In this document: one piece after another, positions 56,916-64,000 of the stretch
Numbering within the stretch: position 1 is the stretch's first letter
How the letters are laid out: each line of letters begins with the position of its first letter
Source of the DNA: Guyparkeria halophila
GTDB lineage: Bacteria; Pseudomonadota; Gammaproteobacteria; Halothiobacillales; Halothiobacillaceae
Assembly (NCBI RefSeq): GCF_034479635.1
Contig: NZ_CP140153.1
Location: 1,557,501 to 1,621,500 of the forward strand
DNA length: 64,000 nt
Reading direction: 5' to 3'
The notes under the pieces: model-generated
Told to the model about the DNA's origin: nothing
Database searches by the model: none
The model's input: only the letters and a program-made list of their open reading frames with translations
Position numbers and translations under genes: made by a program

Positions 56916-57602
56916 CTAGGGATTCTCCGGATCGTGGTTTGTGCTTGAAAGGGATTCGATCGGGCCGGCGGCCATGGCTTGCGCCATGGTCTCGGCGGCG
57001 GCCCGGATGTCGGGGGCGGCGAACACCTCGCTGATCACCGCGATCATGTCGGGCCGATGCGGCATCAGGTCGCCCACGTTGGTCGCCGTAATACCGCCGA
57101 TGCCGCAAACCGGACGACCGAGCCGCTCCCGGGCCCAGCCGAGCACCTCCGCGGGGGCGCCGGGCGCATGCGGCTTGGTTGGCGACGGGAACATCGCGCC
57201 GAAGGCCAGGTAATCGGCACCTTCGGCCGCGGCGCGTTCGGCCCGAAGCCGGTCAGCATAGCAAGACACACCGATGATCGCATCGAGCCCCGCGGCCTGA
57301 AAGCGGGCCCGCGTGTCGGTCAACGGGGCATCCTCGCGGCCCAGATGCACCCCGTCGGCGCCGACCTCGGTCGCCAGTGCCACGTCGTCGTTGACGATGA
57401 AGACGCGACCATGATGCCGGCACAGCTCGCCGAGGGCCGCGGCCTCGTCACGGCGCCGCTCGGCATCGCCGCTCTTGTCCCGATACTGGACGATCCGTGC
57501 CCCACCCTGAATGGCCTCGCTGACCGCCTCGACCAGCGCCTCGCGCTGAAATCGGGTGGTATCGGTGATCACGTAAAGTCCGTTCAGCTCGCCCCGCCTC
57601 AT
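56916..57602 (-). CDS. thiE: thiamine-phosphate synthase
   Basis: 228 residues from ATG at 57602 (MRRGELNGLYVITDTT), which shares a base with the glk stop (TGATG); the open frame upstream is a glk shadow. It joins the pyrimidine and thiazole moieties of thiamine. QYRDKSGDAERR, VFIVNDDVALATEVGADGVHLGREDAP, IGVSCY and GAMFPSPTKPHAPGA are classic ThiE segments. The thiE-hemL pair is common in gammaproteobacteria. Confidence 0.95.
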   Translation of the reverse strand: MRRGELNGLYVITDTTRFQREALVEAVSEAIQGGARIVQYRDKSGDAERRRDEAAALGELCRHHGRVFIVNDDVALATEVGADGVHLGREDAPLTDTRARFQAAGLDAIIGVSCYADRLRAERAAAEGADYLAFGAMFPSPTKPHAPGAPAEVLGWARERLGRPVCGIGGITATNVGDLMPHRPDMIAVISEVFAAPDIRAAAETMAQAMAAGPIESLSSTNHDPENP

Positions 57603-58636
57603 CACGCTCCCCTGCTCGAGTCCATTGCCTGCTCGGCACGGTCCCGCGCAGCCAGTTCGCGCGCGCCGGCCAGGCCGAGTCCGCCATCGGCAATCACCCA
57701 CAACGGCAGACGACCGAGCATGGTCGCAAACCGCCCCTTGTCGAGAAAGCCCTCGAGCGTCTGCTCGCGCAGGAACGGCAGGATGTGCCCGACAATGGCG
57801 CCGGCGAGGAACACCCCGCCGGTGGGCAGTGCCTTGAGCGCCAGGTTGCCGGCCTCCGCGCCAAGAATCCGCGCGAACAGCCGACAGGCGATCACCGCGC
57901 ACTCGTCCTCGCCGCGATTCGCCCATTGCGTGATCAGGGCATTGGGGTCGGAAGCCGCTGACAGCTGTCCATCGGCGCCCGGGGCCGGTCGCCCAAGTTC
58001 CGCGTGACGCGCAAAGGCATAGAGCGAGGAAAAGCCGTCACCACTGAGAATGCGCTCGTAGCTGACATGCCCACCGAACCGCCCACGCAGGTAGCGCAGC
58101 AACGCCATCTCGCGCTCGTCGTTGGGGCCGAAGTCGCAATGTCCGCCCTCGCTCGGCATCGGGTTGTGGTCATGACCGTCATGGAAGAACAGGGCCTCGC
58201 CCAGCCCGGTACCCGGCGCGATCACCGCCGCGTGCCCCTTGCCCGACGCGGCCTCGGGATTGAGGTTCACCCGCCGGTCGATCGGGCTTGCCAGCGCGCC
58301 CAGGCCCACGGCGATCAGGTCATTGACCAACCGCACCGGCGCGCCGCCGAGCGCCTTGCCAATCATCGCCGCCGACAAGGTCCAGGGCAGGTTGGTCGCC
58401 TGTACCCGGGCATCCGCGCCCTCACCCTGCACCGGGCCGGCGATACCGAACGCCGTCGCCTCGATCGGCTCGCGGTCATGATGTCGCCCGGCAAGGTCGA
58501 GAAAGGTCGACAGCATGGCGGAAAAATCCGCGTATTCCCGACTGGACAAGGTCTGTTCGAATCGCGCCACCGGCTCGTCGTCGGCGAACAGCGCCAGGCG
58601 TGAGCGTGTTCCACCGATGTCACCCGCGAGAATCAT
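57602..58636 (-). CDS. glk: glucokinase
   Basis: 344 residues. Phosphorylates glucose with ATP. N-terminal phosphate motif LAGDIGGTRSRLALF, catalytic Asp106 in VRLVNDLIAVGLG, IAPGTGLGEALF, and PSEGGHCDFGPND with the glucose-binding residues. GGAGGAGGT precedes the ATG. The first 17 bases lie within the end of the PhK-like gene, so the two proteins are made together. Confidence 0.95.
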   Translation of the reverse strand: MILAGDIGGTRSRLALFADDEPVARFEQTLSSREYADFSAMLSTFLDLAGRHHDREPIEATAFGIAGPVQGEGADARVQATNLPWTLSAAMIGKALGGAPVRLVNDLIAVGLGALASPIDRRVNLNPEAASGKGHAAVIAPGTGLGEALFFHDGHDHNPMPSEGGHCDFGPNDEREMALLRYLRGRFGGHVSYERILSGDGFSSLYAFARHAELGRPAPGADGQLSAASDPNALITQWANRGEDECAVIACRLFARILGAEAGNLALKALPTGGVFLAGAIVGHILPFLREQTLEGFLDKGRFATMLGRLPLWVIADGGLGLAGARELAARDRAEQAMDSSRGA

Positions 58637-61600
58637 CGCCGACCTCCTCCGTCACACCCGCCGAATCGGCATCGGCCATGAGCAAGTAATCAAGCGCCGC
58701 GCCCACCCAGTAGGCAACGGCCTGAGGGGGCCGATGGTAGAAGGCCTGCCAGGCATCTGCCCGCGACTCGTCGTAAAGCCCCTCTTGTTCGGGATGATCC
58801 TGGAGCCAGGCCAGACGCACGGCGTGCCCGATTACCACGTCGAGTACCAGCGGTTCCTCGATCGACAGTCCCGGCGCCTGCGCCACGATCTCGATCAGCG
58901 CAGCGATCGCCTCGACGTTCAACTCCCGGTATTCAGGCGCCTCGATTCGATTGAGCCGATGTTCGACGGCCAGGGCGAAGTTGTGCTCGCGGGCCGTGGA
59001 CTGGCCACGATAAAGCGCGCTGTCGAGCACATTGCGCGGATCGAACCGGTTGCCGATCACCAATGTCGGGACATGGCCGAGCAAACCCCAGACCCCCTCG
59101 TAAAAGCGTTCGGGCAACCGACTCATGGCCCCGCCGATCTCGCGATGGTGGTACCAGTCGACCGAGCGACCCGCCTCATGGGGCGACTCCGGGTGACTCG
59201 ACCCATATCGAGCCAGCACCGAGGCCACCGCCGATTGGGTCATTTCGTCCCCGACAGACACGGGGGGAAGGCTGGCGCTGTCGCGTCGATGCAGCGCCTC
59301 GAGCCGCTCGGGTTGATCGCGCCAGTCGATCGCCTCGCGCAATCGATCGCGCAGGGCGTGCGGCGTCATGTCGACGAGATCATCCAGCGCCTGCGACGGC
59401 GGGATCGCTGCCTCCCGGGCGCGCAGGGCCACCAGGATCTGCAGCAGCGGGCCGGTACGCAGGGTGATCACGTTGCAGAACAGCTCCGGCTCGGCGCGCA
59501 GCCAGGCACCGAGGTGAATCACGAGTTCCTGGGTCAGGCAACGCTCGCGCGGATCGTCCCCGCAATAGGCGTGGATCCGCCGCAGGATCTCGCGGTTCGA
59601 AATCGGTGCGTCGATCACGGCCGAACGGCTGTAGGAACGGCCCACGGCCAACCGCTTCTGGCGCACGACCAGGTCCATCAAGGCGACCTCGAGGAACCCG
59701 TCGACCACCCCGGCCAGATCAGCAACCAGGCGCATCACCCGCCAGGCACCCACTCGCTGGGCCAGATGCAACAGGGCGAAACAGTGACCTTTCCAGTCGC
59801 GCCATTCACCGTTGACATCGGCGAACGTCCGCTCAGGGGGCAGCGCGCTCCGCGCCAGCCAATCGAGCAACGCCAGCCGTTCATCCAGCGCGGTGACGCG
59901 CCCGAAGGCCGCGATCCGCTCGTCGACCGAAGGCGCCTCGCCCAGCTCGGCGGCAATGGCATCGACGTCACCACCCCACTCCCATGGTCCGTCGGTGACG
60001 GGCGGTTCGGCGGGCGCCTCGGGGAGCTCGCCGGGCAATCGCCACCGGGATGCCGATTCCGCCAACGCGTCCAGGGCCTCGACCCGAATCCCGTCAACCC
60101 GGCCGCTCGCCAGCTTGTCGAGGAATGCCAACAGCGCCTTGCCACCCGGCCCGTCGAGCATCCAGTCGAAAACCGGAATGGCCCACAGCGGCTGACCCGG
60201 GCCACGGGCATACCGGGCCAGGTAGGCAAGGCTGGTACGAATCTCGTGGACCAGCAATTCGGTATCCCGGCCAAGGAGGAAGATGTTCGTGTCGAACAGG
60301 GCCGGGGCCACCGCACAGTCGCCCTTGTCGGTGGCGATCAGACGGCCCGCCGAGAGACCCAGCAGGCGGCGCTTGGGACGCCCGCTCAACGCGAGGCGCG
60401 CATTGGTACCGACCGAGGCCAGTCGCTCGACCAGGACGTCGGCCGGAATCACGGCCGTGCGGGTCCGATCCGGCCACGAGACCGGTGCAATGCCCGCCGC
60501 CTCGAGCCGCTCGCCCACGGAGGGCGTCTGGGCCAGCAGGGTCACGCCGATCGCGGGATTAGCGGTATCCCGCCGGGAGCCATGACGGCCGATCGGGTCC
60601 ACATCATCCGGTTCAATACGTCCCGCCAACAACAGCCGGCCGACCACCCAAAGGCTCTGCGCCCAGACCAGCGGTCGGTTTTCATTCGCCAGCCGATCGG
60701 CGGAGCCGGGGGCGTGACGCTCGGTCGCGAGCGACTCGATCGGCACGTAATAGAGTTCGGGCAACACCGGGGCGCCACATTCGCAGACCGCGACCCACTG
60801 GATCTGCCGTTGAATCGACACGGCGGTGGCGCGATCCCCGGAAAAACAGGCGTTGATCAGCCGATAGGTGAAAAACAACGGCCACTCGCACTCGATGCGG
60901 GCAAAGGCCTCGAGCTCTTCGGGCTCGTAGTGGAGCTTGGTGTCATCCTCGATCGCCGTCTGGTGTCCGTCGCGCAGAAAGCGCTTGTAACCGTAACGCC
61001 CGGCCAGCCGGGTCTCGATGCGTTCACCCACCTCCTCGGCCTTGTTGCCGGCGGCAAAGGCCGGAAAACCGATCACGGCGAGCAGGGCCGAATCGATCTC
61101 CTTGGAGGCCGATTCCCGCGGGAGGATGGAGTCCAGGCACTGCTGTACCCGGGCGATATCGTCGGGCACCACCTGCAATCGACTGCTGTCGTCGCCCTGC
61201 TTGCCGAACAGATCGAATTCGTCGGCGGCCTCCAGCGCGGCGAGTACCAGGCCAAGCGAACTGGCATTGAGCTCGCGCACGCCGTGGTTGATCTTGTTGC
61301 CACGCTCCCAGATGCCGTAGTCGGGGATCACGTAGGCCCGGGACAGGTACCAGACCAGGTTCTGGACGAAATCCACCTCGTCACGCCCCTGCACGATCGT
61401 CAGTCCGCCTGCGGTCATCTGCACCAGCATCAGCACGAACAGCGAGGTGGCATCCAGTTGCAGGTGCCCCCACTCCTCGTCGCCCACCACCGCCTCGCCG
61501 CTGGCGGTGTCGTACTTGGCATGCAGGGCGTCGATCGGGTCGAGGCTGTGCTTGAAGCGCTCGACCCGGTCGGCCTGGCGCATCATGGCGAGCAGCAGCC

Positions 61601-61904
61601 CGCGCATGTTGCGAACGACCGCCTGTTCGAGCTCGAAGGCACGGGTCGAGTGCCCGGCGCGGCGGCAGGCGATACCCAGCGCCCAGGGGCCGAGGATGCT
61701 GTAGACGTTGTCGCGCACCCAGGCGTCCGTGTAATCGCCGTGGGCGGTCACGGCGGTGCTGGCCGGCAGGAGCCCGGAGACAGGGTGCTGCCGATCAAGG
61801 ATGTGCCGGCGCACCTCGCCGAACAGCGCATCAAGCGACACCGCGTCGATCGAAGGATCGACGGCGGCGTCGGATGAAGGGGAAAGGACGTGACCGGACG
61901 TCAT
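58620..61904 (-). CDS. phosphorylase kinase alpha/beta-like GH15 protein
   Basis: 1094 residues from ATG at 61904 (MTSGHVLSPSSDAAV); the frame upstream enters the adjacent mobile element. It strongly resembles the regulatory subunits of eukaryotic phosphorylase kinase: TDAWVRDNVYSILGPWALG (59-77), GHLQLDATSLFVLML (146-160), WERGNKINHGVRELNASSLG (199-218), GYKRFLRDG (305-313) and IECEWPLFFTY (337-347). The first 450 residues form the (alpha/alpha)6 glucoamylase-like domain; the rest is helical and poorly characterised. Length is near that of human PHKB. Bacteria have no phosphorylase kinase catalytic subunit of this type, so function is open: oligosaccharide hydrolase or binding regulator. Overlaps glk. 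Confidence 0.9.
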   Translation of the reverse strand: MTSGHVLSPSSDAAVDPSIDAVSLDALFGEVRRHILDRQHPVSGLLPASTAVTAHGDYTDAWVRDNVYSILGPWALGIACRRAGHSTRAFELEQAVVRNMRGLLLAMMRQADRVERFKHSLDPIDALHAKYDTASGEAVVGDEEWGHLQLDATSLFVLMLVQMTAGGLTIVQGRDEVDFVQNLVWYLSRAYVIPDYGIWERGNKINHGVRELNASSLGLVLAALEAADEFDLFGKQGDDSSRLQVVPDDIARVQQCLDSILPRESASKEIDSALLAVIGFPAFAAGNKAEEVGERIETRLAGRYGYKRFLRDGHQTAIEDDTKLHYEPEELEAFARIECEWPLFFTYRLINACFSGDRATAVSIQRQIQWVAVCECGAPVLPELYYVPIESLATERHAPGSADRLANENRPLVWAQSLWVVGRLLLAGRIEPDDVDPIGRHGSRRDTANPAIGVTLLAQTPSVGERLEAAGIAPVSWPDRTRTAVIPADVLVERLASVGTNARLALSGRPKRRLLGLSAGRLIATDKGDCAVAPALFDTNIFLLGRDTELLVHEIRTSLAYLARYARGPGQPLWAIPVFDWMLDGPGGKALLAFLDKLASGRVDGIRVEALDALAESASRWRLPGELPEAPAEPPVTDGPWEWGGDVDAIAAELGEAPSVDERIAAFGRVTALDERLALLDWLARSALPPERTFADVNGEWRDWKGHCFALLHLAQRVGAWRVMRLVADLAGVVDGFLEVALMDLVVRQKRLAVGRSYSRSAVIDAPISNREILRRIHAYCGDDPRERCLTQELVIHLGAWLRAEPELFCNVITLRTGPLLQILVALRAREAAIPPSQALDDLVDMTPHALRDRLREAIDWRDQPERLEALHRRDSASLPPVSVGDEMTQSAVASVLARYGSSHPESPHEAGRSVDWYHHREIGGAMSRLPERFYEGVWGLLGHVPTLVIGNRFDPRNVLDSALYRGQSTAREHNFALAVEHRLNRIEAPEYRELNVEAIAALIEIVAQAPGLSIEEPLVLDVVIGHAVRLAWLQDHPEQEGLYDESRADAWQAFYHRPPQAVAYWVGAALDYLLMADADSAGVTEEVGDDSRG

Positions 61905-61951
61905 GCGATATACCGGGTGGTCGTTACGGGCAGGCCGGGGACAGCGTCTAG

Positions 61952-62222
61952 GGAAACTCTGCACGATTCGAGGGCGCCTCTGCGAGACCGCCAAGGGGGT
62001 CAGTTGCAAGGCGCAGTCCGCCGTGACTGCGGCGCCCCTTCACACGGGCTGCAACGTCGACAAATACCCCCTTGGCGACCCGCCCGGCCGGGCGGGGCTT
62101 GCGGGTCTGTCCGCACTCGGCGTTCCCGCCCCTCGCCGGGCAATGAGCCCGCCTTCGGCTCGGCGCCTTGATTGCGAACAGACCCGCGAGCCAGAGGCAC
62201 CATCGAATCGTGCAGCGCTTCC
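61952..62222. mobile_element. 271-bp MITE-like element, IS5-type ends
   Basis: Flanked by CTAG on both sides (61948-61951, 62223-62226). The left end GGAAACTCTGCACGATTCGA matches the complement of the right end, GGAAGCGCTGCACGATTCGA, at 18 of 20 positions, and similarity continues inward to about 30 bases. Inside are two more inverted pairs: CCAAGGGGGT (61991) with ACCCCCTTGG (62066), and GCGGGTCTGT (62101) with ACAGACCCGC (62178). No transposase. YTAR-type 4-bp targets such as CTAG are typical of the IS5 group, so a non-autonomous IS5-like element is the best reading. It lies 48 bases before the PhK-like gene. Confidence 0.8.
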
Positions 62223-62272
62223 CTAGTATGGGGGCGATGGCGATTTCCGACCAGAGGTCGGCGGCATCGAAT

Positions 62273-63238
62273 TCAGTGGCGGGTAGACTCGGGCGGCTCG
62301 ACACTGTCGCTGGTGAGCAATTGCTCGACGTCGACCCGATCGAAGCGGTACAGGCTGCCGCAGAAGTCACAGCGAATCTCGACCAGTCCCGGCGTCTCGT
62401 CACTGTCGATCGTCGCCTCGAGTTCCTCTCGTCCCAGGCTGGCGAGCATCTGGCCGACACCCTCACGGGTGCAGCCACAATTGAACGAGACCCGCGCCAC
62501 GTCATGGATGCGCAACGCCTCCTGGTGGAACAGGCGGTGCAGGAGCTCCGGGGCAGAGATGGCAAGCATCTCGGACCGGCCCTTGTCGCCCACGAGGGTA
62601 TCGACCAGCTTACCGACGTGCTCGAACCCGCGGGCCGCCACCCCGGAAGCCGGCGCAATCCCACCGGTCTCGGGCATCTGCTGGACCAGCATGCCCGCGG
62701 TCACCTCGCCGTCGGCCGCCAGGACCAGACGGGTCGGCAACTGCTCTGATTGCTGGAAATACCCCTCGATGGCGTTTTCCAGGCCGGCACCGGCGATCGG
62801 CACCAGTGACTGGTAGCGCGCGCCCTCGTCGGGCTCGATCGTCAAGACCAACTGCCCGCGCCCGAGCTGATCCTCGAGATGGGCGCTCGTGCCCTCAAGA
62901 CGCTCGTCCTCCCACTTGGCCATGCAGCGAAAGCGACGATCGGAGGTGACCTGCACCACCAGCAGGCTGATCGGACCGCGACCGGCGAACTGCAGCACCA
63001 GGCGCCCTTCGAACTTGAGACTCGCGACCATCAACACGGCCCCGGCAACGGCCTGCCCCAGCAGACTCGCCACCGCCGGCGGGTAGTCATGGTTCTCGAT
63101 CGCCGCCTGCCAGGTGGGCTCCAGGCGCAGGGACACCCCGCGCACCCGCCCATCCTCGAAGGAAAAGCGGAACAGTTCGTCGCCCTGCGGCAGGTTTTGC
63201 CAGTCGATCGATTCCGACTTGCCGGTCATCTCGCTCAT
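62273..63238 (-). CDS. hslO: redox-regulated chaperone Hsp33
   Basis: 321 residues. A holdase switched on by oxidation. The C-terminal zinc switch is intact: Cys254 and Cys256 (NCGC) and Cys290 and Cys293 (CDFC), i.e. CxC-x33-CxxC. N-terminal segments RVRGVSLRLEPTWQAA and LLGQAVAGAVLMVASLKFEGRLVLQFAGRGP are typical. Start taken at ATG 63238; a second ATG lies three codons on. A monocistronic unit bounded by gatB and the mobile element. Confidence 0.96.
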   Translation of the reverse strand: MSEMTGKSESIDWQNLPQGDELFRFSFEDGRVRGVSLRLEPTWQAAIENHDYPPAVASLLGQAVAGAVLMVASLKFEGRLVLQFAGRGPISLLVVQVTSDRRFRCMAKWEDERLEGTSAHLEDQLGRGQLVLTIEPDEGARYQSLVPIAGAGLENAIEGYFQQSEQLPTRLVLAADGEVTAGMLVQQMPETGGIAPASGVAARGFEHVGKLVDTLVGDKGRSEMLAISAPELLHRLFHQEALRIHDVARVSFNCGCTREGVGQMLASLGREELEATIDSDETPGLVEIRCDFCGSLYRFDRVDVEQLLTSDSVEPPESTRH

Positions 63239-63277
63239 GGGATTCCCCCGGGTTGCTGCACGACGGTTCAGTCGCTC

Positions 63278-64000
63278 TCAGTTGCCATCGAGGCGGCGCT
63301 TGAGCACCTCGTTGACCGCCTGCGGATTGGCCTTGCCCTTGGCCGCCTTCATCACCTGGCCGACAAAGAAGCCGAACAGCTTGTCCTTGCCGCCCCGGTA
63401 GGCCTCGACCTGCCCCGGGTTGGCGGCGATCACCTCGTCGACCATCGCCTCGATCGCGCCGGTGTCCGAGATCTGCTTGAGACCACGTGCCTCGATGATC
63501 TCGTCGACCGATCCGCCCTGCTCGGCCAGCGCCTCGAACACCTCGCGGCCGAGCTTGTTCGACAGCGTGCCGTCGGCAATCCGCTCGAGCAGGTCGGCCA
63601 GCTTGTCGGCCGGCACCGGGCATTCGCCAATCTCGCACTCGAGCCGGTTCAAGAGCGCGGCGACCTCGCCCATCACCCAGTTGGCGGCCAGCTTGGCGTC
63701 GCTCCCCTCGCGGGCGATCACCGCCTCGAAGTACTCGGCGGTCGCGCGGCTGGCGGTGAGCACGCCGGCATCGTAGGCGCTCAGGCCGTACTCGGACTGG
63801 TAGCGTTCGGCCTTGGCATCGGGAAGTTCGGGCAACTCGGCGCGCCAGGACTCGATCGTCTCGTCGTCGATGACCACCGGCAGCAGGTCCGGGCACGGGA
63901 AGTAGCGGTAATCGTCCGCCTCTTCCTTGGTGCGCATCAGGCGGGTCTCGTCGCGGTCCGGGTCGTACAGGCGGGTGGCCTGCACCACCTCGCCGCCGGT
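63278..64000 (-). CDS. gatB: Asp/Glu-tRNA amidotransferase subunit B (partial)
   Basis: The C-terminal 241 residues or so; the start lies past the right edge. The visible part begins [40 protein letters not shown], the end of the GatB kinase domain, followed by the helical and YqeY-like tail domains ([31 protein letters not shown]). GatB activates misacylated Glu-tRNA(Gln) or Asp-tRNA(Asn) for transamidation. hslO follows 39 bases downstream. Confidence 0.95.

Follow-up and report, generated by a model that had tools for sequence, protein, structure and literature searches.

What would a relative of the regulatory subunits of phosphorylase kinase (PhK) do in a bacterium, and why would its gene run into that for glucokinase? 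The question is raised by a stretch of 64,000 nucleotides from Guyparkeria halophila (contig NZ_CP140153.1, positions 1,557,501 to 1,621,500; hereafter the window), which holds a gene for a 1094-residue protein (P0001, the PhK-like protein) lying directly upstream of glk (Table 1). An earlier note on this DNA had given the position and length of the gene correctly, with the strand (minus) left out, and had proposed a bacterial homologue of the PhK alpha and beta subunits "fused by overlap" to glucokinase. The four segments that it quoted as distinctive were all present in the translation (AWVRDNVYSIL, GHLQLDATSL, NHGVRELNASS, and IECEWPLFFTY), and the near match in length to PHKB was borne out (1093 residues in the PHKB chain of 8jfk). 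The 17-base overlap with glk was also as described; it is shared by two separate, overlapping reading frames, so that overlap stands and fusion does not.

The likeness to PhK was present in the first 350 residues, to which the note had restricted it, and spanned the whole length of the protein. In a phmmer search of PDB sequences, P0001 matched human PHKA (E 7.9e-172) and PHKB (E 6.8e-134) in several stretches from residue 21 to beyond residue 1011, while no other glycosidase appeared at E≤1 and the next matches were two unrelated chains near E 1. A profile of 37 aligned sequences (P0001 and 36 bacterial relatives) gave E values of 0 and 6e-269 for PHKA and PHKB and found no other glycosidase in the PDB at E≤10. 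Pfam assigned P0001 to GH15 (PF00723, E 7e-61, over the cut-off) and to KPBB_C, and both domains were present in all 37 aligned sequences. Two trees grouped the PhK proteins of bacteria and humans together against the GH15 enzymes, with support of 100/98 and 100/100. The special affinity to PHKA and PHKB, which profile searches and trees could have disproved, was thus upheld, and an ordinary bacterial glucoamylase was ruled out by the PDB sequence searches, the sequence comparisons (23 GH15 loci, with L146, L165, L167, and L168 excluded as void because of a wrong frame length), the occurrence of KPBB_C in 37/37 sequences, and the trees.

The predicted structure of P0001, computed from the 37 sequences (pLDDT 77.5, pTM 0.75), agreed with this placement. 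It aligned with PHKA over 766 residues, up to residue 869 (Z 46.7, 3.8 Å), and with PHKB over 786 residues (Z 44.1). Foldseek alignments to PhK ran over ~1100 columns with a root-mean-square deviation (rmsd) of ~14, and the alpha chain 8z5r_A aligned to residues 20 to 1075 of the model with an rmsd of 12.6, the domains being shifted. The C-terminal region was matched by 8xyb_A (TMt 0.71), a chain of 173 residues from an entry for human PhK gamma-delta, which would correspond to the PHKA C-terminal domain. The five-domain D1 to D5 fold of PhK was thereby recovered, on the predicted model only. GH15 structures matched D1 alone (~residues 15 to 440), with Z scores of ~27 for the 5z3/7c2 glycosidases and ~20 to 25 for glucoamylases, and these matches, with PF00723, identified D1 as the (alpha/alpha)6 barrel typical of GH15. 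The closest single-domain structures were 5z3a-f and 7c24-25 (Z ~27); in the available text of PMC12446779, 5z3a is the Kribbella isomaltose glucohydrolase. Because the sequence matches were confined to PHKA and PHKB and the GH15 structures fitted D1 alone, we conclude that P0001 is a full-length member of the PhK alpha/beta family bearing a GH15 barrel.

Conservation was concentrated in D1, where 144/419 columns were invariant across the 37 sequences compared to 45/640 in D2 to D5, and lowest in the D3 equivalent (5/110); these counts depend on domain limits that we set ourselves. The invariant residues included both predicted catalytic glutamates, E200 in the WER motif and E383 in the LPE motif, which align with E185 and E371, the residues named as the two catalytic glutamates of PHKA (PMC10978961, section 7), as well as W62, R64, and D65 of a W-x-R-D motif. 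The alignment of the GH15 glutamates gave the same picture: in six ordinary GH15 proteins of the class, E200 and E383 fell on the WE and E positions, and the W-x-R-D positions aligned too. WER and LPE were also seen in all 50 loci inspected among 80 kept from a scan of GTDB species genomes, two of the 50 translating uncleanly. The human subunits had departed from this pattern to different degrees. Of the 144 bacterial invariants in D1, 42 were changed in PHKB, including the general base (E383 to Lys) and the Arg of the R-D motif (to Gln), and 18 in PHKA. Five of the 18 PHKA changes clustered at positions 407 to 415, next to a segment lining up with a motif conserved in GH15, and, judging from the alignment, this cluster may explain why PHKA is inactive as a hydrolase.

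The pairing with glk recurred well beyond this genome. glk was found directly downstream, on the same strand, in 19/19 full-length loci of the Halothiobacillaceae, the host family (L002-L020, own genome included); seven more loci of the family (L021-L027) were too short to judge, and two of their genomes, re-examined as L063 and L064, had glk present. The same arrangement occurred in 27/30 loci of a second family (f168), the others comprising one locus that ends with its contig and two without glk within 1.5 kb downstream, and in 19 of the 80 GTDB loci, the three sets overlapping in genomes. A single-genome accident is ruled out by the counts from the two families, and the association anticipated by the earlier note thus holds in both. 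Elsewhere, glk was present in G217, cut by the contig end in G154, and represented by a divergent glk-like gene in G180, while the loci of G188 and G327 end too early to judge. Gaps between the two frames were often -4 to +14 bp. From the overlap, co-production of glucokinase (Glk) and the PhK-like protein, as the note had it, would be expected.

A homologue of PhK subunits in a bacterium was correctly recognized, although the rarity implied by the note was not confirmed. The GTDB scan returned at least 593 pattern matches, at least 576 of which encode a relative; the 80 kept loci are a subset of these, 59 being cyanobacterial by their titles and 21 gammaproteobacterial by title or place in the tree. 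KPBB_C occurred in 14/369 genomes of the class sample, 10 of these carriers lying outside the Halothiobacillaceae, and in 1/14 control genomes (Synechococcus elongatus). In a sample of 57 relatives, a protein search matched all 27 genomes of the host family (own included, several matches fragmentary) and none of 30 genomes of other families. The gene was carried by 53/101 genomes of f168, a member of which (G274) joined Methylomonas and other Methylococcales in the tree, pointing to a methanotroph family.

GlgA (glycogen synthase) was found in 14/14 carriers against 207/355 other genomes of the class sample, and glycogen phosphorylase in 13/14 against 199/355. Outside the host family, the counts were 10/10 (Fisher p 0.005) and 9/10 (p 0.03), relatedness being ignored in both tests. 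MalQ was present in 14/14 carriers. TIGR02100 (GlgX) exceeded its cut-off in 5/14, the own genome not among them; the other nine gave low TIGR02100 matches only, in the own genome to GlgB. GH133 matches were low and limited to 4/14 carriers, and the own genome gave no good case for a debranching enzyme of this family (a 471-aa frame barely over the cut-off, with 21.8 bits against 21, E 9.8e-5). The own genome further contained two weak phosphorylase-family matches (best E 3e-14), and its only GH13 match was the GlgB frame. Its glycogen cluster lies outside the window (L210:6090-16921, ~1518 to 1529 kb), with malQ, a GH57 gene, and glgC on the minus strand and glgB, glgA, and a gene for a DUF1631 protein on the plus strand; the malQ/GH57 and glgA/DUF1631 frames each overlap by 4 bases.

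Taking these results together, we incline, with some reserve, to the view that P0001 is an active intracellular GH15-type glucohydrolase that acts on glycogen-derived glucans and feeds Glk. We infer hydrolysis, substrate, cytoplasmic location, oligomerization, a single mRNA, and coupled translation. The protein would be a cytoplasmic alpha-glucoside glucohydrolase of the PhK alpha/beta family, whose D1 barrel would use an inverting two-glutamate mechanism to remove terminal glucose from maltodextrins or from limit dextrins at their alpha-1,6 stubs; Glk, produced by coupled translation of the same mRNA, would then phosphorylate the released glucose, and D2 to D5 would serve as a scaffold, probably forming oligomers.

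Several observations weigh against an active glucohydrolase. The strongest is that PHKA has both glutamates and that the human alpha-gamma-delta subcomplex and the holoenzyme nonetheless showed no activity on maltose, isomaltose, and glycogen (PMC10978961, section 7), to which it can be replied that the bacterial proteins keep residues that PHKA has lost. In addition, the same two glutamates serve a transglucosidase in a GH15 homologue described in the available text of PMC12446779, and therefore their conservation alone leaves the type of reaction unfixed, and the model was of low confidence in two stretches around the active site (residues 197 to 209 and 309 to 338). The partner gene is also not universal: glk was adjacent in 0/59 cyanobacterial loci (at least 1.2 kb of downstream sequence in 54, less in 5) and was not found in the available flanks of L079, L096, G267, G288, G362, and G382, and a profile search for glk, run alongside two positive controls, agreed for the loci without it. 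On the metabolic side, genomes with GlgA and without the PhK-like gene are common (the 207/355 above), the five carriers with GlgX show that the gene is no simple GlgX substitute, MalQ could itself be a source of glucose, and the own genome also encodes a GH57 glycosidase.

The bacterial protein might instead be a nonhydrolytic sensor: D1 would bind glycogen or maltodextrin at chain ends, and Glk or a phosphorylase would be switched on or off through the scaffold. Such a role, which we regard as rather unlikely, would resemble that of the human alpha and beta subunits in regulating a kinase, and would fit the inactivity of PHKA in spite of its two glutamates, the retention in bacteria of the C-terminal region, whose human D5 counterpart contacts gamma (alpha) or dimerizes (beta) (PMC10978961), and a coupling to glk, which would suit a stoichiometric complex. 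However, a binder should not require a general base that is invariant over such divergence, and PHKB has lost that base; the 18 altered D1 positions in PHKA, five of them at 407 to 415, may explain its inactivity, and there is no glk near the 59 cyanobacterial loci. A catalytic role outside glycogen metabolism, as a hydrolase or transferase of another glucoside such as isomaltose, trehalose, sucrose, or a glucosyl compatible solute, seems improbable to us. The proximity of D1 to the isomaltose glucohydrolase group would favor it, as would the inclusion in GH15 of trehalases and a GH15-like transglucosidase (PMC12446779, available text), but the carriers are genomes with glycogen synthesis, and the own genome has GlgB as its only GH13 match, so that amylosucrase or TreS was not seen there. 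Finally, P0001 might recruit a Ser/Thr kinase that controls glycogen phosphorylase, in a bacterial counterpart of the PhK complex. We give this very little credence: two protein-kinase-domain matches do exist in the own genome, but none of the identified neighbors is a protein kinase, and the better match carries HAMP and Cache domains and is encoded elsewhere in the genome.

The bacterial proteins also bear on the origin of the human subunits. Over D1 and D2, PHKA was ~48 to 54% identical to most bacterial members compared and 44% to P0001, which shared 35% with PHKB; PHKA reached 54% identity with cyanobacterial members compared to 43% with human beta. In the trees, the human alpha/beta pair fell with cyanobacteria inside the bacterial set, with support of 97/88 in the first tree, which includes L146 (branch 9.86), and 83/88 in the second, from which L146, L150, L151, L158, and L160 were left out for their long branches. 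An approximately unbiased test, chosen after the first tree, rejected bacteria as a single clade without the human sequences (p 0.016), with a small log-likelihood difference of 2.88. Alpha and beta were each represented by one human sequence, and these two long branches were the only eukaryotes, and the cyanobacterial placement is therefore a lead and not a result. A broader scenario, which we put forward tentatively and consider doubtful as a whole, is that the bacterial proteins still represent the ancestral state of the PhK regulatory subunits: a glycogen-bound glucohydrolase, perhaps the alpha-1,6-debranching enzyme of glycogen-making bacteria that lack GlgX, would pass glucose to a cotranslated glucokinase. 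Eukaryotes would have acquired the gene from bacteria of a cyanobacteria-like lineage, and after a duplication that gave rise to alpha and beta, catalysis would have been lost and glucan sensing kept for kinase control. As a separate observation, the PhK-like protein of L051 (G154, family f129) paired with one from the Halothiobacillaceae (98/97), while those of L047 and L048, also of f129, grouped elsewhere; either transfer or a misbinned contig would account for this.

Compared with known systems, P0001 is homologous along its whole length to human PHKA and PHKB (8jfk, 8z5m), with a matching predicted fold, and shares with PHKA the catalytic pair and the R-D motif, whereas PHKB lacks the general base. 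It differs from human PhK in the pairing of its gene with glk, in having no known gamma or delta partner, and in its C terminus (GDDSRG), which lacks the CaaX farnesylation motif attributed to human PhK subunits in the available text of PMC10978961. With the GH15 glucohydrolases (glucoamylase, isomaltose glucohydrolase, and trehalase) it has in common the (alpha/alpha)6 barrel, the two glutamates, and the R-D and WE motifs, but it is set apart by ~650 extra residues (D2 to D5), by the lack of any link to them in sequence searches of the PDB, and by two motifs, LPE-Y and NENxPLVWAQ, at whose positions the six GH15 proteins carry (S/A/P)E-(E/D) and GNFPQ. A bacterial gene has been tied to PhK and glucoamylase before: PMC3977695 includes PkgA, from the ETT2 region of E. 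coli, under the description "phosphorylase kinase and glucoamylase" and gives it with 1059 (presumably bp) compared to 3285 bp here; the comparison is with this listing.

The family is not new to databases, as Pfam models already hit bacterial members; our contribution lies in comparing the proteins over their whole length and in describing the intact site, the recurrent coupling to glk, and the link to glycogen. Among the papers listed by literature searches, none described this bacterial family or its association with glk in the title or the beginning of the abstract. Neither glucoamylase nor GH15 was mentioned in the available part of PMC8062543 (on Mtm.), and PMC6406325, on methanotroph glucokinases, contained none of the neighbor-related terms looked for except one unrelated "clustering". 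The significance of the glucoamylase-like domains of PhK, which have no detectable activity, is said still to need investigation (PMC10978961, section 7). Relatives in methanotrophs and cyanobacteria that keep the active-site residues make this question testable, and the D1 positions kept in the 37 bacterial sequences and changed in PHKA predict where activity may have been lost. In methanotrophs, the protein may be a source of free glucose from glycogen.

Table 1. Positions, in the window, of the PhK-like gene, its parts, and glk
Feature	Position	Strand	Evidence
PhK alpha/beta-like GH15 protein (P0001), 1094 aa	58620..61904	minus	translation, Pfam, phmmer, predicted structure
D1	60585..61841	minus	most GH15 structures align within residues 14-444; 144/419 columns invariant
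E200 codon (WER motif), predicted general acid, counterpart of PHKA E185	61305..61307	minus	alignment; 37/37 invariant
E383 codon (LPE motif), predicted general base, counterpart of PHKA E371; replaced by Lys in PHKB	60756..60758	minus	alignment; 37/37 invariant
D2 equivalent, ~residues 441-625 (boundary approximate)	60030..60584	minus	aligns to PHKA/PHKB; 9/185 columns invariant
D3 equivalent, ~residues 626-735 (boundary approximate)	59700..60029	minus	mostly helical in model; 5/110 columns invariant
KPBB_C match, residues 831-1078, part of D4-D5	58671..59414	minus	PF19292 E 5.2e-73
17-bp overlap of PhK-like gene end and glk start (glk ATG at 58636)	58620..58636	minus	reading frames
glk, glucokinase (P0002), 344 aa	57602..58636	minus	PF02685 E 6e-81

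The PhK-like gene is the sole GH15 match in the own genome, which consists of one contig of 2.45 Mb. It starts with an ATG at 61904 and ends with a stop codon at 58620-58622, and the N terminus of its product (MTSG) is common to three close relatives. The top NCBIfam match of the glk product is glucokinase (E 3e-73), under the curated cut-off of that model. Upstream of the PhK-like gene lie the genes for Hsp33 and GatB, and downstream of glk those for a TMP-TENI protein and a class-III aminotransferase. No Rfam family reached its gathering score within 57000-63300, and no promoter- or terminator-like sites were seen in 61850-62350. Around the cyanobacterial loci, eight recurrent neighbors were scanned and gave no functional hint: a WecG-type transferase, MgtE, a subtilase, a GcvT-like protein, an amine oxidase, a histidine kinase, a member of the phytoene synthase family, and an alpha/beta hydrolase.

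An open reading frame (ORF) of 1120 aa on the plus strand (58515-61877) lies antisense to nearly all of the PhK-like gene. We rejected it as a real gene, because the homologues found match the minus-strand protein, and it is probably a composition effect, a by-product of a GC-rich gene. Another locus of the own genome (L212:3575-5296) encodes a Ser/Thr kinase of 573 aa that combines Cache and HAMP domains; it matched PknB-type models best, below the cut-off, and its mix of kinase and sensor parts looks unusual. An element of 279 bp (61948-62226), bearing 35-bp imperfect terminal inverted repeats (89%), lies between the genes for Hsp33 and the PhK-like protein. Stretches ~70 to 85% similar to it were found in the Guyparkeria-related loci L066, L068, L069, and L070, and its end repeats also in L212; given these copies, it looks like a dispersed element resembling miniature inverted-repeat transposable elements (MITE-like).

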